This document shows positions 4,976 to 28,011 of a stretch of DNA of 64,000 bases, one piece after another. The notes beneath the pieces were generated by a model. The model saw nothing but the letters and a program-made list of their open reading frames with translations, made no database searches and was not told where the DNA came from. How positions within the stretch are numbered: the stretch's first letter is position 1; each line of letters starts with the position of its first letter. The position numbers and the translations under genes are program-made. The DNA lies in the NCBI RefSeq assembly GCF_038024105.1, contig NZ_CP150661.1:2437001-2501000 (forward strand), written 5' to 3'. The stretch is from Polaribacter butkevichii. GTDB lineage: Bacteria > Bacteroidota > Bacteroidia > Flavobacteriales > Flavobacteriaceae.

Positions 4976-5326
4976 ATGTTAGTACAAGTTGTAAAATCAA
5001 AAATCCACCGTGTAAAAGTTACAGGTGCAGATTTAAATTATATAGGAAGCATCACCATAGATGAAGATTTAATGGATGCAGCCAATATTATTGAAGGCGA
5101 ACGCGTTCAAATCGTAAACAATAATAATGGAGAGCGTTTAGAAACCTATGCTATTCCTGGACCTCGTGGAAGTGGAGAAATCACATTAAACGGAGCAGCT
5201 GCAAGAAAAGTTGCTGTAAATGATGTATTAATTCTTATCGTATACGGATTTATGGATTTTGAAGAAGCTAAAAACTTTAAACCATCCTTAGTATTTCCTA
5301 ACGAAAAAGACAATACACTTACCTAG
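4976..5326 (+). CDS. panD: Aspartate 1-decarboxylase (pyruvoyl enzyme)
   Basis: PanD makes beta-alanine from aspartate for pantothenate synthesis. The 116-residue proenzyme contains the self-cleavage site YIGS, with Gly24-Ser25 as the expected scissile pair that creates the pyruvoyl group. Lys9 and the [10 protein letters not shown] region with downstream NGAAA match the active-site layout of the family. It directly follows panC, supplying one of that enzyme's substrates, and the next gene starts 1 bp after its stop. Confidence 0.97.
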
Positions 5327-5327
5327 T

Positions 5328-6272
5328 TTGAATATTAAAAAAATCTTAAAAACCATACTACCTCTCGCTTTGGGAGGTTTTTTAGTATGGTATTCTCTCT
5401 CAGGTATTTCTCTAGAAACATTAGGTACCTACTTTAAAGAAGCCAATTACAGTTATATTTTTCTTGGGCTTTTCTTTGGTATTTTAAGTCATCTTTCTAG
5501 AGCCTACAGATGGAAGTTTATGTTAGAACCATTAGGTTTTAAACCTAAATTTACAAACAGTGTTTTGGCTGTTTTAGTTGGCTATTTAGTAAACCTAGCG
5601 CTACCAAGAGCAGGCGAAATCTCTAGAGCAACCGTAATGGCAAATTACGAGAAAATTCCTTTCGAAAAAGGGTTCGGAACCATTGTAGCAGAACGCATTG
5701 CAGATTTAATAATGATGCTTTCTATTGTTGCAATTACCCTTTTTGTTCAGTTCGATTTTATTTACGAACTCCTCACCAAAAACTTCGATCCTTCTAAAAT
5801 AATTATTGGTTTAGTTATTCTAATCATTGGTTTCTTTGTTTTCACCTCGTTTGTAAAAAAAGCGACATCTGGCTTTTTATTAAAAATTAAAACCTTTGTT
5901 TCTGGTTTAATAGAAGGCGTTACAAGCATCTTTAAAATGAAAAACAAATGGGCTTTTATTTTTCATACCGTATTTATTTGGGTAATGTATGTAGCTATGT
6001 TTTGGGCAACAATACCTGCAATTAGCGGCTTAGAAGTACCTTTTGGCGGAATTTTAATTGGCTTTATAGCAGGCGGATTTTCTATTGCTGCAACAAATGG
6101 CGGCATCGGTTTATACCCAATTGCGGTTGCCGGCGCATTGGCTTTATTTAATATTCCTACAGAACCTGCAACCGCTTTTGGTTGGATTATGTGGACCGCA
6201 CAAACAGCAATGATTATCGTTTTTGGAGGTTTAGCCTTTTTATTTTTACCAATTTACAATAAAGATAAATAA
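5328..6272 (+). CDS. Flippase-like / lysylphosphatidylglycerol synthase transmembrane family protein (UPF0104)
   Basis: This 314-residue integral membrane protein has about eight hydrophobic segments and the family signature HLSRAYRWKFML near residue 60, then NLALPRAGEISRA near residue 95 and AERIADL. These are typical of the UPF0104/LPG-synthase TM family, without the soluble aminoacyl transferase domain of MprF. The substrate is unknown; a lipid-related membrane function is inferred from the family. The start is a TTG codon 1 bp after the panD stop, implying co-translation with panCD. Confidence 0.82.
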   Translation: MNIKKILKTILPLALGGFLVWYSLSGISLETLGTYFKEANYSYIFLGLFFGILSHLSRAYRWKFMLEPLGFKPKFTNSVLAVLVGYLVNLALPRAGEISRATVMANYEKIPFEKGFGTIVAERIADLIMMLSIVAITLFVQFDFIYELLTKNFDPSKIIIGLVILIIGFFVFTSFVKKATSGFLLKIKTFVSGLIEGVTSIFKMKNKWAFIFHTVFIWVMYVAMFWATIPAISGLEVPFGGILIGFIAGGFSIAATNGGIGLYPIAVAGALALFNIPTEPATAFGWIMWTAQTAMIIVFGGLAFLFLPIYNKDK

Positions 6273-18380: not shown

Positions 18381-18941
18381 TTATTGGTGCGAATCTATAA
18401 AATTTTCTTTTGTATCAAATTGATAAATTACTTTATCTTTTTCAATCGCAGAATTTTTATCTGAAATTATAGAAAAGTAGGAACTCCAAGGGTAATCAGT
18501 CAATTTTTTAACAAAATCATGCTGAATAGGATTATTATGAATATATAAAATCAAATTCTTTAGATAGGTTTCATCTTTTAATTCTATTCTTCGAAATGGT
18601 TTTTCTAGCAAAGAACCATGCCGTTTATTTTGCTTATTAATAGCTTGTACATAGGCATTAAAAAAATGAGAAAATTGTTGAGATGGTTTTTTAGCTGCTT
18701 TTTCTGTATCAATAGAAAAGTAAGCACAAATTTCTGATTCAGTTCTAATTTTTACTAATAAATGAAAATGATTTTTTAACAAGCACCAAGCAAAGGTTTC
18801 CGCAACAGGAAAAATATATTTTTTATATAATTTTAAAAAATAGCGATAGTTTTCATCAGAATAAAACAAATCTTCACCATTAATTCCTCTATTATAAATA
18901 TGATAGAAATAATCTAACTTAATGGTTTCTAATTCGCGCAT
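18381..18941 (-). CDS. REP-associated tyrosine transposase (Y1/HUH family)
   Basis: The 186-residue protein has the Y1_Tnp layout: YHIYNRGING near the start, the HUH metal motif in NHFHLLV near residue 58, and the catalytic Tyr in LILYIHNNPIQ near residue 134. PWSSY follows. No inverted-repeat-bounded insertion sequence surrounds it, and it is single-copy here, which suits a domesticated RAYT rather than an IS200/IS605 transposase. A perfect palindrome at 18287-18315 is a candidate substrate. Confidence 0.88.
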   Translation of the reverse strand: MRELETIKLDYFYHIYNRGINGEDLFYSDENYRYFLKLYKKYIFPVAETFAWCLLKNHFHLLVKIRTESEICAYFSIDTEKAAKKPSQQFSHFFNAYVQAINKQNKRHGSLLEKPFRRIELKDETYLKNLILYIHNNPIQHDFVKKLTDYPWSSYFSIISDKNSAIEKDKVIYQFDTKENFIDSHQ

Positions 18942-21919: not shown

Positions 21920-22016
21920 AAAAATAGCAAGTAATTTTTTGTTTCTATTTTTATGATTATTATAATATTTTTTATGCTTTGTGTAAAAAAAGAACGAGTT
22001 ATACGACAGAGTTTTT

Positions 22017-23168
22017 ATGAACAAGTATATCTTAACCTTATTCTTGGTTACTTCTGTTTTTATAAGTTGTAACAACGAAGATGATTCTTTTGACCCAAAT
22101 GCAAAACGACTTCCTCCAGTTATTACTGCTCCAATTAATTTTGCAGACCCTAATTTAAATCAACAAGGTGTAGATTTATATAATAGATTAACTAATCTAA
22201 CTCAAAAAGGCATAGCCTTTGGCCAACAACAACCTTTTGGAACAGGAAATAATTTTCCTGTTCTAAATAAACTAGAAAACGATTTTTTTGAAGTAGCAGG
22301 AGACCATCCAGCAATAGCAGGTTTTGATTTAGAATTGATAGGATTACAACCCGATATACAATCTAATACTGCTTTTCTTCTAGATGAATTTATAAATCAA
22401 TTTACAGCGGCCATTATAAAAGCTCATGAAAATGGGAGTATTATAACCATAAGTTGGCATCACGTAAACCCTAACGGTTTTGGCACACCTAATGATGGAA
22501 GTTTTAACGATGTTGTAAAAGGTTTTTTAAAAGGAGGAGAATTTAGAGAAGTTTACATTAAGCGTCTTGCAAGAGCGGCAAGATTATTAAATAAATTAGT
22601 AGATGCTAATGGAAATTCTATTCCTGTATTGTTTAGACCTTGGCATGAAATGAATGGCGATTTCTTTTTTTGGGGAGAAGGTTTTAGAACTACTGAAGAA
22701 TACATTCAACTCTGGAGAGATACTGTTCAGATTTTATCCGAAGATTTTAATGTTCACAATCTATTATATGTATATTCTCCCAATTTTGTTGCAAATCGTT
22801 CAGAATATTTAAGAAATTATCCCGGAGACGAATTTGTAGATATTTTAGGTATTGATATTTATGATTTTCAAAACAGAAAATTCTTATCTACTGCCTTAAG
22901 AAATTTAGAAATTGTAGAAAATATTAGTATTGAAAAAAATATGCTTTTTGCATTAACCGAAACGGGGTTAACCAATGTAGTTGATAACACTTGGTGGACA
23001 GAAAGTTTATATAAAGCTATTAGAGCTAGCAGTATTTCTTATGTTATGATTTGGCGAAACGATATGACTTCTTTTTTTCATGCACCTTTTTTAGGACATC
23101 CATCAGAAAATAATTTTAAAGAGTTTTTAGATAAAGAAGTGATACTTTTAAGCAAAGATATTTTATAA
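22017..23168 (+). CDS. Glycoside hydrolase family 26 (beta-mannanase-like) lipoprotein
   Basis: The 383-residue protein is a lipoprotein (FISC, Cys18) with a GH26 TIM barrel. The acid/base Glu is in FRPWHEMNG near residue 207, and the nucleophile Glu in ALTETG near residue 315. ITISWHHVNP also matches the family. GH26 enzymes cleave beta-mannan or related glycans; surface anchoring suits polysaccharide use. No SusCD pair is adjacent, so it stands apart from a classical utilisation locus. Confidence 0.88.
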   Translation: MNKYILTLFLVTSVFISCNNEDDSFDPNAKRLPPVITAPINFADPNLNQQGVDLYNRLTNLTQKGIAFGQQQPFGTGNNFPVLNKLENDFFEVAGDHPAIAGFDLELIGLQPDIQSNTAFLLDEFINQFTAAIIKAHENGSIITISWHHVNPNGFGTPNDGSFNDVVKGFLKGGEFREVYIKRLARAARLLNKLVDANGNSIPVLFRPWHEMNGDFFFWGEGFRTTEEYIQLWRDTVQILSEDFNVHNLLYVYSPNFVANRSEYLRNYPGDEFVDILGIDIYDFQNRKFLSTALRNLEIVENISIEKNMLFALTETGLTNVVDNTWWTESLYKAIRASSISYVMIWRNDMTSFFHAPFLGHPSENNFKEFLDKEVILLSKDIL

Positions 23169-23239
23169 AGTAGCCTAAAAAGCATTTCCTATTTATGACA
23201 AAATTTACTGTACTTTTACTAATAATGAAAACCAAATAA

Positions 23240-24079
23240 ATGGCAGTTCAAGACATTGTAAAATATTCCTTTAAAGAAACCTTTTCTGTAAGTACCGTTC
23301 AATTCGAAAAAGCATGTACAATAGATCATTCTGTACAACAAAACGCCTATTCTATTTATTGGATTCAAGAAGGAAGTGGCACCTACAATATCGATTTTGA
23401 AAGCTATACGTTTAACGACAATGTGTTGTTCTTTTTATCACCCGGACAAGTTTTTACAGTAGATTCCGAACAAATAAAAACAGCCTACAAACTTACCTTT
23501 GTAAGAGACTTTTATTGCATACAAACCCACGATACAGAAGTAGCTTGCAACGGAATTCTATTCAACAATATATATGAAACGCCGTTTGTAAAACCCTGCG
23601 AAAAAGACACCAAAAAACTCAACTTTATTTTAGAGGGTCTTATAGAAGAGTTTCAACAAAACGAAACTGCACAGTACGATATGTTGCAATCTTATTTAAA
23701 GCAATTTATTATTTCTTCGGTTCGTGTAAAAAAGGAAAACCATGTAATTAAAGAAGACACCGAAACCCGTCTTTTTAAAGATTTTAGTTTGTTGGTAGAA
23801 CAGAATTTTAAAACCATGCACTCGGTAACAGACTACGCAAACAGATTGGGCCTTTCGCCAAAATCTATTAGCAAACATTTTCAGAAGTTGGGTGCAAAAA
23901 CACCATCAGACTTTATTAAAAACCGCATTTTGTTAGAAGCAAAACGTCAGTTAATTTACACCGACAAAACGGTAAAAGAAATTGCTTTTGAGCTTGGTTT
24001 TAACGATCCTGCGTATTTTACGCGCTTCTTTACAAAGGCCATTTTAAAATCACCTTTGCAATTTAAAAAGGAATATTAG
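23240..24079 (+). CDS. AraC family transcriptional regulator
   Basis: The 279-residue protein has an N-terminal cupin-like sensing region (WIQEGSGTYNIDF near residue 35) and a C-terminal pair of AraC helix-turn-helix motifs: ANRLGLSPKSISKHFQKL and then IAFELGFNDPAYFTRFFTK. It is followed by two units whose promoters share direct GTCCA repeats with 21-bp period (24527-24588, 25009-25070), a spacing typical of AraC-type binding. The regulator is inferred to control those genes. The ligand is unknown. Confidence 0.92.
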   Translation: MAVQDIVKYSFKETFSVSTVQFEKACTIDHSVQQNAYSIYWIQEGSGTYNIDFESYTFNDNVLFFLSPGQVFTVDSEQIKTAYKLTFVRDFYCIQTHDTEVACNGILFNNIYETPFVKPCEKDTKKLNFILEGLIEEFQQNETAQYDMLQSYLKQFIISSVRVKKENHVIKEDTETRLFKDFSLLVEQNFKTMHSVTDYANRLGLSPKSISKHFQKLGAKTPSDFIKNRILLEAKRQLIYTDKTVKEIAFELGFNDPAYFTRFFTKAILKSPLQFKKEY

Positions 24080-24129
24080 CTGGCTATTTATTTCCCTTAG
24101 CTTCATAAAACACAAAGTAACAAGATTGG

Positions 24130-24356
24130 TATTTTTTTATCCAGCTTTGTCATTTCGACCTTTTGAAAGAAATCTCATAAAGTTTGGTTGGCGCTGTGGT
24201 ATCAACACTATGAAAATTCTTCTGAAACATGAACCAATAAGGTTTGTATTTTTTTATCCAGCTTTGTCATTTCGAACCTTTTGAGAGAAATCTCATAAAA
24301 TTTGGTTGGCGCTGTGGTATCACTGTTATGAGATTTCTCCTATTGTCGAAATAACA
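24130..24356. repeat. Tandem pair of 117-bp repeat units with inverted arms
   Basis: Two units start at 24130 and 24247 (TATTTTTTTATCCAGC...), sharing TTTGTCATTTCGA, GAAATCTCATAA and TTTGGTTGGCGCTGTGGTATCA. In the second unit GAGAAATCTCATAA (24285-24298) and TTATGAGATTTCTC (24326-24339) form a perfect 14-bp inverted repeat. A related element is at 34412-34501. No gene lies in 24080-24656. Confidence 0.8.
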
Positions 24357-24405
24357 AGTTTGTGGTTTATTGTTTTAGCTTCACTCAACATTTTTTAATT
24401 TTCTT

Positions 24406-24505
24406 GGGCGCGCCCTTATCAGGTCAGGCTTTCGCAACTCGCTTTTTAAAGTTTTATCAAACTTTAAAAGAGCTCAAACAACTTGCTCTATCCTTCACGC
24501 GTGCA
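24406..24505 (+). repeat. Dispersed repeat, GGGCGTT...TAACGCA family, copy B
   Basis: It runs from GGGCGCGCCC through AGGCTTTCGC, a small hairpin, AGAGCTCAAACAA and ends near CACGCGTGCA. The closest relative is the reversed copy at 40061-40147, which shares GAGCTCAAACAA. Confidence 0.7.
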
Positions 24506-24526
24506 TTTTTGCTAACTTTTTTTGCC

Positions 24527-24588
24527 TTGTCCAAACAGTAGGAACTTTTGTCCATTTTTAAACCTCCATCTCGGTTGCATCTTTGCAG
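24527..24588 (+). promoter_or_regulatory. AraC-type operator and promoter 1 (thioredoxin)
   Basis: GTCCA occurs twice with 21-bp period (TTGTCCA at 24527-24533 and 24548-24554). A -7-like CATCTTTG follows at 24578-24585. The same arrangement recurs at 25009-25070 without gaps; I count 48 of 62 positions identical. Direct repeats two helical turns apart overlapping the -33 region suit an AraC activator. Confidence 0.65.
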
Positions 24589-24656
24589 TGTGTAACAATA
24601 ACAACACAACAACAAGATATAAATCCTGCTTTAGCAGCAATTAAAAATAAGAAAAA

Positions 24657-24971
24657 ATGGAAATTCAATTAGAACAAACAGACTTTAACAATGTTATAGA
24701 AAATAACAGCAATGTATTATTAGATTTTTATGCAGACTGGTGTGGACCTTGTCAAACATTATTGCCAACCATCAACAAATTAGCAGACGAGTTACAGGAC
24801 AACATTACCATTAAAAAAGTAAATGTTGATGAATACCCAGAAGTAGCAGCAAAGTTTAATATTAGAAATATACCAACATTAATTTTCTTTAAAGACGGAG
24901 CACCTGCAGACAGGCACACAGGTTTAATTACTGAAAGAAACTTAAGAAGTAAAATAGACCGCTTAAAATAA
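24657..24971 (+). CDS. Thioredoxin
   Basis: The 104-residue protein is a compact thioredoxin: DFYADWCGPC active site near residue 30, the cis-Pro in RNIPTLIFF near residue 75, and no signal peptide, so it is cytosolic. It reduces disulfides, and here probably serves the redox proteins encoded just downstream (the AhpD-like protein with its CxxC). It is transcribed from the first of two matching AraC-type promoters. A separate thioredoxin is at 44830-45189. Confidence 0.95.
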   Translation: MEIQLEQTDFNNVIENNSNVLLDFYADWCGPCQTLLPTINKLADELQDNITIKKVNVDEYPEVAAKFNIRNIPTLIFFKDGAPADRHTGLITERNLRSKIDRLK

Positions 24972-25008
24972 GCACTGCAATCATCAAAAAAAAAGACAAC
25001 TTTTTAAC

Positions 25009-25070
25009 GAGTCCAAATCAAAGGAACTTTTGTCCAATTTTTGAAGTCACTATCGGTTGCATCTTTGCAG
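25009..25070 (+). promoter_or_regulatory. AraC-type operator and promoter 2 (small Cys peptide operon)
   Basis: This copies the 24527-24588 site: GTCCA at 25011-25015 and 25032-25036, the block AGGAACTTTTGTCCA, then TCGGTTGCATCTTTGCAG with CATCTTTG at 25060-25067. It is 33 bp before the 25103 ATG. Confidence 0.65.
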
Positions 25071-25102
25071 AGTCAATTAATAACAACAAAAAAACAACAA
25101 TT

Positions 25103-25201
25103 ATGAAAACTATAGAAAACACACAATGCCCAAACTGTTGGGGATACCAAACATACGACGATCAAAACCCAGAACAACAACTTTGCAAATGCGAAGCTTA
25201 A
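25103..25201 (+). CDS. 32-residue Cys-rich small protein
   Basis: An ATG-to-TAA frame of 33 codons encodes a peptide with TQCPNCWGYQ and a terminal LCKCEA: a CxxC plus CxC pair, the spacing of a small zinc ribbon or a thiol redox peptide. It has its own AraC-type promoter 33 bp upstream and sits 50 bp before the AhpD-like gene. Conserved Cys spacing, the promoter and the operon position argue it is real despite its size. I do not recognise a named family. Confidence 0.68.
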   Translation: MKTIENTQCPNCWGYQTYDDQNPEQQLCKCEA

Positions 25202-25251
25202 TATAAAAGCAACACAAAACAGTAATAATAAAACATTTTAAAAATAAAATT

Positions 25252-25800
25252 ATGAGCACATTTAACGTACCAACAAAAAACGAAGTATCAGCAAATAACC
25301 AAGCAATTTTTACACAGTTAGAAAAAGGATTAGGTTTTGTACCAAATTTATACGCAGCATTTGCACACAGTGAAACTGCATTAGGTAACTTTTTAGCAAT
25401 CGGAAACGGAAAAACTAGTTTTTCTGCAAAAGAAAAAGAAGTAATAAACCTAGCAGTAAGTCAAGTAAACAATTGTGTTTATTGTTTATCTGCACACACA
25501 GCAATTGGTAAAATGAATGGTTTTACAGAAGAGCAAATCTTAGAATTAAGAGTTGGTAAAGCATCTTTTGATACAAAATTAAACGCTTTAGCTAATTTTT
25601 CTAGAAGCGTAGCAGAAAACAGAGGAGCAGCAACACCAGAAGCAGTAGAAAACTTATACGCAGCAGGATATACCAAAGGAAACTTGGCAGATGCAATTAT
25701 CTTAATAGGAGAAATTACCATTACCAACTACTTTCATAAAACAACAGATGTTGCCGTAGATTTCCCTGTAGCACAAGCATTAGAAGTAGCAACAATTTAA
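25252..25800 (+). CDS. Carboxymuconolactone decarboxylase / AhpD-like family protein
   Basis: The 182-residue protein carries the AhpD-type active site CVYCLSAHTAIG near residue 72 (CxxC plus His four residues on). In AhpD this reduces peroxiredoxin partners or breaks down peroxides. FVPNLYAAFAHSE and the helical GNGKTSFSAKEKEVINLAV region are typical of peroxidase-related CMD proteins. With thioredoxin and the small Cys peptide it forms a probable thiol redox unit under AraC control. Confidence 0.9.
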   Translation: MSTFNVPTKNEVSANNQAIFTQLEKGLGFVPNLYAAFAHSETALGNFLAIGNGKTSFSAKEKEVINLAVSQVNNCVYCLSAHTAIGKMNGFTEEQILELRVGKASFDTKLNALANFSRSVAENRGAATPEAVENLYAAGYTKGNLADAIILIGEITITNYFHKTTDVAVDFPVAQALEVATI

Positions 25801-25842
25801 TAAACAATCAATTTTAATAATAATTAGTAATACACAACAATC

Positions 25843-26199
25843 ATGAAAAAAGTAATCGCAATTTTAGTAGTAGTTTTAGGTTTTGCATTTAGTACAAATG
25901 CACAAGAAGCAAAAACAGTTTCTTTAGAACAAACAAAAGGTGAGTTTACTCAGAAACAACTTACATTGTCTGAAGGGACTTATATTTTTGAAGTAGCAAA
26001 CAACAATGTTGGTCATAATGTAGGTTTTGTTTTAGCTCCAAAAGCAGATGTAAAAGCGCACATTAAAAACGCGTATGTAACTGCACAAGTAAAAAACAAC
26101 ACAAAAGAAACTTCTAAAGAAGTAACACTTACAAAAGGAGAATATGTTTATTTCTGTCCTTTAAACCCAACACCACAATATACGTTAATAGTAGAATAA
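25843..26199 (+). CDS. Cupredoxin-like exported protein with altered metal site
   Basis: The 118-residue product has a signal peptide ending near TNAQ, then a single beta-sandwich cupredoxin domain. One potential ligand, His in VGHNVGF near residue 58, and the Cys in YFCPLNP near residue 109 are present. At Cys+3, where blue copper proteins have the second His, there is Asn, and the axial Met region reads PQY. Type 1 copper binding is therefore uncertain. It is the last gene of the AraC-regulated set, before a strong terminator. Confidence 0.8.
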   Translation: MKKVIAILVVVLGFAFSTNAQEAKTVSLEQTKGEFTQKQLTLSEGTYIFEVANNNVGHNVGFVLAPKADVKAHIKNAYVTAQVKNNTKETSKEVTLTKGEYVYFCPLNPTPQYTLIVE

Positions 26200-26223
26200 T
26201 TTCTTTATTCAAATTAGGGGAAG

Positions 26224-26249
26224 GGCGAGCAGAAATGCTCGCCTTTTTT
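26224..26249 (+). terminator. Rho-independent terminator after cupredoxin gene
   Basis: GGCGAGCA-GAAA-TGCTCGCC perfect 8-bp stem with tetraloop followed by six T. Confidence 0.92.
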
Positions 26250-26260
26250 GTGTTTATACA

Positions 26261-27061
26261 CTAAAATTTTTCTGGCACAAAAGTTTGATAATCCATAGGT
26301 GGCCTAACATACGCTTTACCATCTGGTAACGGTGGAAGCTCTATAGGTTTTAAATCCATTTTTTTATACGGAATTTTACTTAACATATGACTTATACAAT
26401 TTAACCTTGCTCTCTTTTTATTCTCGGAGTTTACCACAAACCAAGGCACTTGCTTGGTATCTGTATGCGCAAACATTTGATCTTTTGCCTTAGAATATTC
26501 TAACCAACGAGAACGAGATTCTAAATCCATCGGGCTAAATTTCCATCTTTTTAAAGGATTAGAAATACGGTTTTTAAAACGTCTTTCTTGTTCTTCATCA
26601 CTTACAGAAAACCAGTATTTTAAAACAATAATTCCAGATCTAACCAACATACGTTCAAACTCTGGGCAAGAGCGTAAAAACTCATCATACTCATCATCGG
26701 TACAAAAACCCATTACTTTTTCTACACCTGCTCTATTGTACCAACTTCTATCAAACAACACAATTTCTCCTGCTGCAGGTAAATACTGCACGTAACGCTG
26801 AAAATACCATTGCGACTTCTCTTTTTCTGTAGGCACACCCAAAGCAACCACTTTACAAATTCTAGGGTTTAAAGGCTCTGTAAAACGTTTTATAGTTCCT
26901 CCTTTACCAGAAGCATCTCTACCTTCAAAAAGCACCACTACTTTTAAACCTTGGCTTTTAACCCATTCTTGCATGTGTACTAATTCTGTATGCAAAAGGG
27001 TTAATTCTTGTTCGTAATTAAATTTCTTTTTTTTACCGTTAGATGAAGTTTGTTTTTCCAT
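26261..27061 (-). CDS. ppk2: Polyphosphate kinase 2 family protein
   Basis: PPK2 uses polyphosphate to phosphorylate nucleotides. The 266-residue single-domain protein has Walker A in FEGRDASGKGG (residues 45-55), Walker B/lid motif VLFDRSWYNRAG near residue 104, and the SNPLKRWKFSPMDL and RSRWLEYSKAKD segments typical of the family. Whether it prefers ADP or GDP cannot be told. It is monocistronic, convergent with the cupredoxin operon. Confidence 0.94.
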   Translation of the reverse strand: MEKQTSSNGKKKKFNYEQELTLLHTELVHMQEWVKSQGLKVVVLFEGRDASGKGGTIKRFTEPLNPRICKVVALGVPTEKEKSQWYFQRYVQYLPAAGEIVLFDRSWYNRAGVEKVMGFCTDDEYDEFLRSCPEFERMLVRSGIIVLKYWFSVSDEEQERRFKNRISNPLKRWKFSPMDLESRSRWLEYSKAKDQMFAHTDTKQVPWFVVNSENKKRARLNCISHMLSKIPYKKMDLKPIELPPLPDGKAYVRPPMDYQTFVPEKF

Positions 27062-27185
27062 TTAGGCAATTTACAAAATTTTTAAAAAAATGAAACAGAA
27101 TTGTTTTTAGGCGGCTATTTTAAATTAATTATAAATAATATTTAGGCACAAAAAACGTTTTCTTTTTCATCAAAAATAAATACCC

Positions 27186-27193
27186 TATTTTTG
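27186..27193 (+). promoter_or_regulatory. Candidate -7 box for the 27226 hydrolase
   Basis: TATTTTTG matches TAnnTTTG, 32 bp before the TTG start. Confidence 0.5.
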
Positions 27194-27225
27194 CGTTTCA
27201 CATAATTACGTAAAAAAATAAATTT

Positions 27226-28011
27226 TTGTTAAACTACTACTCATATCCACATACAGAATCTAAAGAATGGGTAACTTTTGTTCATGGAGCAGGAGGCAGT
27301 AGTTCTATCTGGTTTAAACAAGTTAGAGATTTTAAAAAACATTTTAATGTGTTAATTTTAGACTTACGTGGTCATGGAGATAGCAAACCAACCTTAAAAG
27401 ATACTTTTAAAGCAAAATATACTTTTGATTCTATTACGGCAGATATTGTAGAAGTAATTGATCATTTAAAAATTAAAAAATCTCATTTTATTGGTATTTC
27501 TTTAGGAACCATTCTTATTAGAAATCTTGCTGAAAAAAGACCAGAATTGGTAAAAAGCATGATTATGGGAGGCGCTATTATAAAAATGAATTTCCGCTCT
27601 CAAGTATTAATGAAAGTAGGTAACATTTTTAAGTCTGTAGTACCGTATATGCTTTTATACAAACTCTTTGCATTTATTATCATGCCAAAGAAAAATCATA
27701 AAAACTCTAGATTGTTGTTTGTAAACGAAGCTAAAAAATTATATCAAAAAGAATTTTTACGCTGGTTTAAATTAACCTCAGAAATTAACCCACTTTTACG
27801 CTTTTTTAGAACAAAAGATATTAAAATTCCTACACTATACGTAATGGGAGCCGAAGATCATTTGTTTTTACCTTCTATAAAAAACATTGTTGCCAAACAT
27901 GTAACTTCATCACTTTTTGTTATAGAAAATTGTGGTCATGTTGTTAATGTAGAGCAACCAGAAATGTTTAACAACCAAACAATTCGATTTATATCCTCTT
28001 TAAGAGCATAA
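27226..28011 (+). CDS. Alpha/beta hydrolase
   Basis: The 261-residue protein has FVHGAGGSSSIWF near the N-terminus, LRGHGDS, the nucleophile elbow GISLGT (Ser near residue 90), and a late His in ENCGHVVNVEQP. The acid is likely the Asp in MGAEDHLFL. A TTG codon is the only plausible start: the frame is closed 12 bp upstream and no ATG occurs in the first 100 codons. The substrate is unknown. Confidence 0.87.
   Translation: MLNYYSYPHTESKEWVTFVHGAGGSSSIWFKQVRDFKKHFNVLILDLRGHGDSKPTLKDTFKAKYTFDSITADIVEVIDHLKIKKSHFIGISLGTILIRNLAEKRPELVKSMIMGGAIIKMNFRSQVLMKVGNIFKSVVPYMLLYKLFAFIIMPKKNHKNSRLLFVNEAKKLYQKEFLRWFKLTSEINPLLRFFRTKDIKIPTLYVMGAEDHLFLPSIKNIVAKHVTSSLFVIENCGHVVNVEQPEMFNNQTIRFISSLRA

Follow-up and report, generated by a model that had tools for sequence, protein, structure and literature searches.

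In Pseudomonas aeruginosa, the AraC-type regulator RclR drives rclX, which codes for an AhpD-like peroxiredoxin; both are needed against hypochlorous acid (HOCl) and hypothiocyanous acid (HOSCN), according to the available part of the source (PMC7950407). The same part reports RclR to be constitutive and not autoregulated, rclX to form a single-gene operon, and the tested peroxide, electrophile and nitric oxide donors to have no effect on an rclR mutant. The inspection of 64,000 nt of Polaribacter butkevichii DNA (contig NZ_CP150661.1, positions 2,437,001 to 2,501,000; this whole stretch is referred to as the window) identified a locus that resembles this pair, as far as that part of the paper describes it, in that a gene for an AraC-family regulator adjoins one for an AhpD-family CxxC protein, which it is predicted to drive. 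The reported lack of autoregulation of RclR also has a parallel, since no operator of the kind described below was found 5′ of the window AraC gene. The locus differs in including genes for a thioredoxin (trx), a microprotein and a cupredoxin-like protein, in its operator and its -7 promoter, and in its regulator, which is 19% identical to Escherichia coli RclR, the P. aeruginosa pair being likened by description. The locus is best filed among AraC-controlled thiol-oxidant modules, here with a microprotein family. The module core consists of the AraC regulator, the operator, a small CPNCWGYQ protein, an AhpD-like protein of the carboxymuconolactone decarboxylase (CMD) family and a secreted cupredoxin-family protein (Cup), while a second operator and the thioredoxin are accessory.

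A first-pass annotation of the window had listed an AraC regulator, a thioredoxin, a 32-residue Cys peptide, an AhpD-like CxxC protein and a cupredoxin, and all five are present as open reading frames (ORFs; Table 1). It had further noted that two 62-bp promoters share a block and both contain GTCCA repeats at a distance of 21 bp, and a recount agreed with this. Positions 24527-24588 and 25009-25070 align without gaps and are identical at 48 of 62 positions, the runner-up 62-mer match to either promoter in the whole window (both strands) being 33 of 62. The block TCGGTTGCATCTTTGCAG is common to both. GTCCA-N16-GTCCA occurs twice in the window against a mean expectation of 0.03, and none of 100 shuffles contained two or more. 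In the 4.08-Mb genome of the organism, the longer pattern TGTCCA-N6-RRGAAC-N-TTTGTCCATTTTT, with up to three mismatches, was found at these two sites only, revealing no further targets. The loose pattern TGTCCA-N15-TGTCCA with one mismatch occurred at 14 places in that genome versus 54 for its reversed control, so its other matches are uninformative. A third place resembling AGGAACTTTTGTCCA (one mismatch) was rejected as a site, as it lacks the upstream GTCCA.

The long operator pattern, again with up to three mismatches, was searched for in 166 genomes of the genus (in the GTDB sense), as were AraC orthologs (E <= 1e-60). The operator was detected in 88 genomes, with one to three sites each; the reversed pattern was found in one genome, and a pattern with one extra spacer base in 2 of the 166. 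An AraC ortholog was present in 86 genomes. Both elements occurred together in 84, the regulator alone in two, the operator alone in four, and neither in 76 (Fisher p 1.4e-39, kinship ignored). The AraC-only genomes are G118, whose AraC gene is interrupted by stop codons, and G151, where the fetched stretch has genes for AraC, CMD and Cup. Two of the operator-only genomes (G012 and G163) are incomplete and contain the module, AraC being absent from the fetched stretch; of the others, G110 has an AraC remnant and G016 lacks the module. In G110 (L179), the operator lies beside an AraC remnant of 73 aa, and peptide, CMD and Cup were not found, as in a decaying locus.

Alignment of 131 operator sites was gap-free and showed GTCCA, AGGAAC, TTTTGTCCATTTTT, a region of variable sequence and GTYGCATCTTTGYA. 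Ahead of the first box, positions -20 to -1 carried at most 0.92 bits. TTTG was present at a constant distance in 128 of the 131 sites. These sites were selected by a regular expression allowing three substitutions over the repeat part, where conservation is therefore partly by construction; this does not apply to the -7 TTTG columns, which lay outside the search pattern, or to the loci found through the peptide or the AraC protein. The alignment omits L222 (a duplicate of L182), three loci without module genes downstream (L219, L220 and L224) and sites short of the full 115 nt.

An operator-independent search was performed with the 32-aa peptide alone against 299 Flavobacteriaceae genomes. 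Matches at E <= 0.01 were obtained in 25 genomes, the organism's own included, and 20 loci of the other 24 genomes were taken with wide flanks (G294, G345, G442 and G458, with E values of 0.002-0.005, were left out). Sixteen of the 20 correspond to the module (L125-L140; 15 genus codes). All 16 are from other genera and all contain the operator and Cup, while AraC is present in 15 and CMD in 14; the locus lacking AraC, L131, starts near a contig end. The first-pass annotation had proposed looking for the repeats in Flavobacteriia genomes, their absence from orthologous loci being what would speak against it; they are present at all 16 module loci elsewhere, and this check does not refute it. 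The remaining four loci (L141-L144) lack the operator and code for a different protein, at least ~90 aa long, that has CPxCWG close to its N-terminus. These proteins have a later CxxC, and L142 scanned alone gave no Pfam match above the cut-off; the L143 gene lies beside two CMD genes, and that of L144 shares one reading frame with a hemerythrin domain. The AraC alignment was also used to scan named genomes; among the 80 loci kept of 485, complete or partial modules were detected in Polaribacter, Ulvibacter, Lacinutrix, Gaetbulibacter, Flaviramulus, Tenacibaculum, Wenyingzhuangia, Kordia and Lutibacter.

More distant AraC relatives (L247-L304; 32-54% identical; 57 of the 58 loci long enough, 268,839 bases in total) were inspected for the spacing of the repeats. 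TGTCCA-N15-TGTCCA was found nine times as an exact match versus none at each of 13 other spacings (9-22), and 25 times with one mismatch versus 0-3 at the others; with two mismatches the contrast drops to 68 versus 8-28. The loci include close kin (L287-L289, L292), so the nine exact sites do not amount to nine independent events. Pairs with at most one mismatch include members of Saprospiraceae, Mucilaginibacter, Chitinophaga and Hymenobacter, so the 21-bp spacing is a trait of this AraC subfamily across Bacteroidota. The motif TGTCCA was not found in the AraC/Bacteroidetes literature, among the matches listed. Co-regulation of the two transcription units of the window, predicted from these sequence patterns, is strongly supported by their conservation. 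The earlier proposal of one regulator for both units is supported as regards the pairing of operator and regulator (together in 84 of 166 genomes, both absent from 76); the duplication of the operator, which had been part of it, turned out to be tied to trx and not to the core.

Flavobacterial sigma-A promoters contain TAnnTTTG at positions -12 to -5, according to the available part of the source (PMC9723704). The end of the block shared by the two promoters is best read as a -7 box of this type: CATCTTTG, present in both, keeps the A and the TTTG, the first T being replaced. This would place the GTCCA boxes at approximately -61 to -57 and -40 to -36. A -33 TTTG normally lies about 19-23 bases 5′ of the -7 octamer. 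It is missing at that distance from both promoters, TTTG being found 27 bases from the octamer in promoter 1, and 27 and 16 bases from it in promoter 2.

The relationship between operator number and trx was analysed in 91 of 96 genus loci (L043, where the contig ends at the operator, was left out, as were L156, L219, L220 and L221; L222-L224 were outside the range). AraC was present in 83 loci, the operator in 88, the peptide in 85, CMD in 84, Cup in 85 and trx in 24. All 24 trx loci have at least two operators, while 63 of the 64 operator loci without trx have exactly one; the exception, L184, contains other ORFs between its operators plus a masked stretch. On the AraC tree (102 rows), trx is confined to one clade of 44 rows, in which its distribution is scattered and requires 13 changes, at least eight of them forced by well-supported branches. 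Nine single-operator loci were compared with the two operators of the window, and some of the operators from this clade look like hybrids. That of L163 agrees with operator 1 at 13 of 13 bases on its left side and with operator 2 at 19 of 20 on its right. The operators of L153 and L180 lean the same way, those of L148 and L215 are clear on the right side only, those of L041, L045 and L048 are operator 1-like throughout, and L145 fits neither. The upstream flank resembled that of operator 1 in 14 of 16 single-operator loci (not L186 and L046), a comparison made with no shuffled control, and in 11 of those 14 the leader was clearly nearer that of operator 2 (L045 and L200 were nearer operator 1; L048 was undecided). 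Recombination between operator copies, deleting trx, is suggested as the simplest account of the hybrids. The combination of an operator 1 flank with an operator 2 leader also fits an ancestor without trx, so it is only the hybrid operators and the scattered distribution on the tree that favour deletion.

Other arrangements were also observed. L206 has the order operator-Trx-operator-Trx-operator. In L139, from another genus, a DoxX gene lies between two operators, one of them without TTTG at the usual place, and in L241 (Wenyingzhuangia) a looser rule places sites before CMD and before Cup. Thioredoxin and CMD genes are joined under related AraC regulators in Lutibacter (L245, whose thioredoxin is 50% identical), in a Bacteroidota metagenome-assembled genome (L249) and in one from Chitinophagales (L251). 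With its duplicated operators, the module is a naturally occurring example of gene cassettes bordered by promoters and subject to gain and loss.

The window regulator belongs to the AraC/XylS family (Pfam HTH_18, PF12833, 76.6 bits; cut-off 33.6). Its AlphaFold model has a mean predicted local distance difference test (pLDDT) score of 81, and Foldseek matched it to the full-length AraC members Rns, ToxT and CsvR. Proteins of this family bind direct repeats spaced by roughly two helical turns, 5′ of the promoter; the predicted operators contain a conserved 21-bp repeat whose distance to the -7 box is constant. The best curated NCBIfam model was HpaA (TIGR02297), aligned over residues 36-277. 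An assignment as HpaA was rejected: the score, 122.7 bits, is below half the cut-off of 274.65, and no 4-hydroxyphenylacetate genes were recognised nearby. An assignment as RclR was likewise rejected, given the 19% identity with the E. coli protein (228 columns, E 0.10) and the position of RclR C89 opposite T96; in the weak alignment obtained (18% identity), RclR C21 aligns with C26 and C86 with C93. The redox cysteines of RclR are C21 and C89, according to the available part of the source (PMC7464077). Across 102 AraC rows from module loci, C93 and C103 are invariant; H97 is kept in 101, and so is C26, with a gap in the remaining row. Many of the related AraC genes (L253-L265, L277-L294) adjoin DUF1348, ABM monooxygenase-like or isochorismatase-like genes, and often share the 21-bp operator spacing.

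The CMD protein scores 54.2 bits with the AhpD core model TIGR00778 (cut-off 27.8) and 69.3 with the peroxidase-related model TIGR01926, below its cut-off of 81.8. The AhpD of Mycobacterium tuberculosis has the catalytic pattern Glu-x11-Cys-x2-Cys-x3-His. Depending on the species, the CMD position is taken by one of two types, which are 36-38% identical to each other, and both fit this pattern (E63/C75/C78/H82 in 41 of 41 rows of type 1; E66/C78/C81/H85 in 55 of 55 of type 2). The module proteins share the family and the Glu-Cys-Cys-His set with AhpD and peroxidase-related CMD proteins, and have sequence matches to some of known structure (PDB 3lvy, 6e8l and 3c1l); the split into two subtypes and the TIGR01926 score set them apart. 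In L050, L051, L053-L056 and most of L125-L140, the CMD gene is of a different subtype, with the rest of the core (AraC, operator, peptide and Cup) retained. WCGPC is present in all 26 aligned thioredoxin rows, one of them a duplicate. Cup shares with plastocyanin and azurin the Pfam families PF13473 and PF00127, above cut-off, and a signal-peptide-like N-terminus, from which it is probably secreted; no PDB sequence match was found at E 0.001. Residues H73, C105, P106, N108, T110 and P111 are present in 101 of 101 rows. The copper ligands of type 1 cupredoxins are His...Cys...His...Met. Cup differs from plastocyanin and azurin in lacking the second His or the Met after the Cys in all 101 rows, and a VGH motif occurs in 55. 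The label 'cupredoxin' given earlier is correct for the family, but the canonical ligand set is incomplete in every row, so Cup was rejected as a copper protein; from its sequence, copper binding appears doubtful.

The 32-aa peptide gave no Pfam or NCBIfam match at E 0.001. Changes in the codons of its CPNCWGYQxY core, compared over 76 distinct sequences (the broken G029 copy included), fall far more often on the third position (274) than on the first (41) or second (48), indicating that the microprotein is selected as a protein. Among the matches listed from a profile search, 120 clusters, none had a Pfam domain, and those named were 'hypothetical' or 'uncharacterized'. In other genera, 14 of 14 peptide matches at E <= 3e-4 lie inside this module. 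Of 104 copies, 66 have a second CxC and 38 lack it. L138 and L140 have an extra CxxC; zinc ribbons have two CxxC-type knuckles, and weak sub-threshold matches to them were obtained for the longer L138 form. In L040 (G029; positions ~5273-5560), the peptide frame is broken after CPNCW, the operators, Trx, CMD and Cup being kept. In the literature searched, with most subscription journals out of reach, no description of the microprotein family or its CPNCWG motif was found, nor any of a regulon in Bacteroidetes combining AraC with carboxymuconolactone decarboxylase, or with AhpD and thioredoxin. Selected as a protein and tied to the module, the microprotein family has a role that is directly testable.

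In the reading that we favour, with a confidence only a little above even, an AraC activator that senses through conserved cysteines switches on an AhpD-like/thioredoxin system, which counters a thiol-reactive oxidant. It builds on what was observed: the genes present, the layout of operators and promoters, their conservation, the joint occurrence of regulator and operator, selection on the peptide and the catalytic residues; from these we infer activation, the direction of the response, the oxidant signal, electron flow between Trx and AhpD, and the roles of the peptide and the secreted protein. The oxidant would oxidise or modify thiols of the AraC sensor domain (C26, C93 and C103, with H97), and the modified dimer would bind the 21-bp direct repeat (GTCCA boxes with the AGGAAC inner box), centred near -49. 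From there it would contact RNA polymerase and activate a sigma-A promoter that has the -7 box and, at the usual spacing, no -33 TTTG. Both promoters would respond jointly, one yielding thioredoxin and the other the microprotein, the AhpD-like CxxC protein and Cup. The AhpD-like protein might then reduce the oxidant or an oxidised thiol and be recharged by thioredoxin, either that of the locus or a housekeeping one; the microprotein would probably assist this cytoplasmic enzyme as a small Cys/zinc partner, and the secreted cupredoxin-fold protein would act in the periplasm. The target genes suggest thiol repair. Since these genera are marine and RclR-RclX offers an analogy, hypohalous acids may be the signal. 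The nitrosative or metal stress put forward in the first-pass annotation finds no support here; in RclR-RclX, the nearest characterised pair, the rclR mutant was sensitive to HOCl and HOSCN and not to a nitric oxide donor, according to the available part of the source (PMC7950407).

Several observations weigh against this reading. Co-occurrence was counted per genome, and in G078 the regulator and the operator are about 194 kb apart; the AraC gene of that genome (L156, left out of the locus count) has no module genes downstream, contrary to the pattern. Of 45 distant AraC rows, nine have Cys at position 26, 17 have a different residue there and 19 a gap; C103 is missing from nine and C93 from three, so thiol sensing need not be subfamily-wide. 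The loops at or next to the sensor cysteines (residues 23-29 and 94-102) fall below pLDDT 50 in the model, and the similarity to E. coli RclR is as low as stated above. As trx is missing from 67 of the 91 genus loci, the locus-encoded Trx is not an obligatory reductant. Finally, HpaA, the regulator of 4-hydroxyphenylacetate use whose model fits the window AraC best, matches all 66 members of the AraC family alignment. This last point, together with a fold resembling ligand-binding AraC proteins and with the DUF1348, ABM monooxygenase-like or isochorismatase-like genes next to distant relatives, which in many cases share the operator spacing, would suit an AraC that senses a small organic molecule (an aromatic acid, a quinone or another electrophile) in a cupin-like pocket. 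The genes would then detoxify or modify that compound, CMD acting as a decarboxylase-like enzyme or a reductase and not as a thiol peroxidase. We hold this to be somewhat improbable: the HpaA score is far below its cut-off, the CMD proteins retain the AhpD CxxC, none of the module genes was recognised as catabolic, and the module's own AraC orthologs retain the sensor cysteines.

The same cysteines and H97 could form a Cys3His site, and the CPNC of the peptide, its second CxC in most copies, the extra CxxC of L138 and L140 and the weak zinc-ribbon matches of L138 would be compatible with a response to copper or zinc in which AraC binds the metal, its handling falling to the Cys microprotein and the cupredoxin-like protein. 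Metal stress is nevertheless quite unlikely as the signal, since the module shows no recognisable exporter, chaperone or metal reductase, neither His nor Met follows the Cys of Cup (VGH being found in 55 rows only), and the second CxC of the peptide is missing from 38 copies. The two operators could also be a recent local duplication whose similarity is neutral, which within one genome would account for the 48 of 62 identities; yet spacing, boxes and -7 distance are kept over 131 sites, many genera and loci found independently of the operator, and there is little information just 5′ of the first box. With a footprint conserved so far beyond the organism's own genome, neutral duplication was rejected as having next to no probability. 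A broader version of the thiol-oxidant reading would be a hitherto undescribed, Bacteroidota-wide stress response in which an AraC subfamily, sensing through cysteines and served by its own 21-bp operator, responds to reactive halogen species (e.g. algal hypobromous acid) and drives an AhpD-like enzyme with a dedicated Cys microprotein of ~31-35 residues, operator-promoter copies serving as cassette borders between which trx or doxX is gained and, by recombination between the copies, deleted again. As a whole, this version is tentative and distinctly improbable. For a stress response of marine Flavobacteriia, the locus supplies a specific regulator, its predicted operator and a list of candidate targets.

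Table 1. Features of the AraC-controlled module and their positions in the window
Feature	Position	Strand	Remarks
AraC-type regulator, 279 aa	23240..24079	+	N-terminal sensor domain with C26, C93, H97, C103; double HTH (helix-turn-helix) at ~196-278
Predicted operator 1, GTCCA-N16-GTCCA with internal AGGAAC box	24529..24554	+	~-61 to -36 relative to the predicted start
-7 box CATCTTTG, trx promoter	24578..24585	+	TTTG at constant distance; start predicted at ~24590
Thioredoxin, 104 aa, WCGPC	24657..24971	+	TIGR01068, 109.8 bits (cut-off 96.8)
Predicted operator 2, same layout as operator 1	25011..25036	+	From the sequence pattern
-7 box CATCTTTG, peptide-CMD-cupredoxin promoter	25060..25067	+	Start predicted at ~25072
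32-aa microprotein, core CPNCWGYQxY	25103..25201	+	Codon-position pattern; 215 database clusters at E <= 1
AhpD-like CMD family protein; E63, C75, C78, H82	25252..25800	+	PF02627, 55.1 bits; TIGR00778
Secreted cupredoxin-family protein (Cup); H73, C105-P106 invariant	25843..26199	+	PF13473 and PF00127 above cut-off
Terminator-like hairpin, operon end	26218..26249	+	14-pair stem followed by a T run

Between the AraC gene and operator 1, positions 24108-24341 consist of two tandem copies, 117-118 bp apart and 84-86% identical, which contain TTTCGA and GAAATCTC. Just 5′ of operator 1, at 24406-24507, lies a structured element (GGGCGYGCCC ... TCAGGTCAGGC ... ATCCTTCACGC; RNA fold z-score -2.55). 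A scan of positions 22000-28000 detected no Rfam family at gathering score and gave no support to an RNA element at the promoters. The structured element is present as a single copy in the organism's genome (up to three mismatches). In 26 of 108 loci, including three from other genera, its first ten bases (up to two mismatches) were found no more than 135 bases 5′ of the first operator. Elsewhere in the window, a minus-strand ORF at 18381-18941 resembles by eye a repetitive extragenic palindrome (REP)-associated tyrosine transposase.

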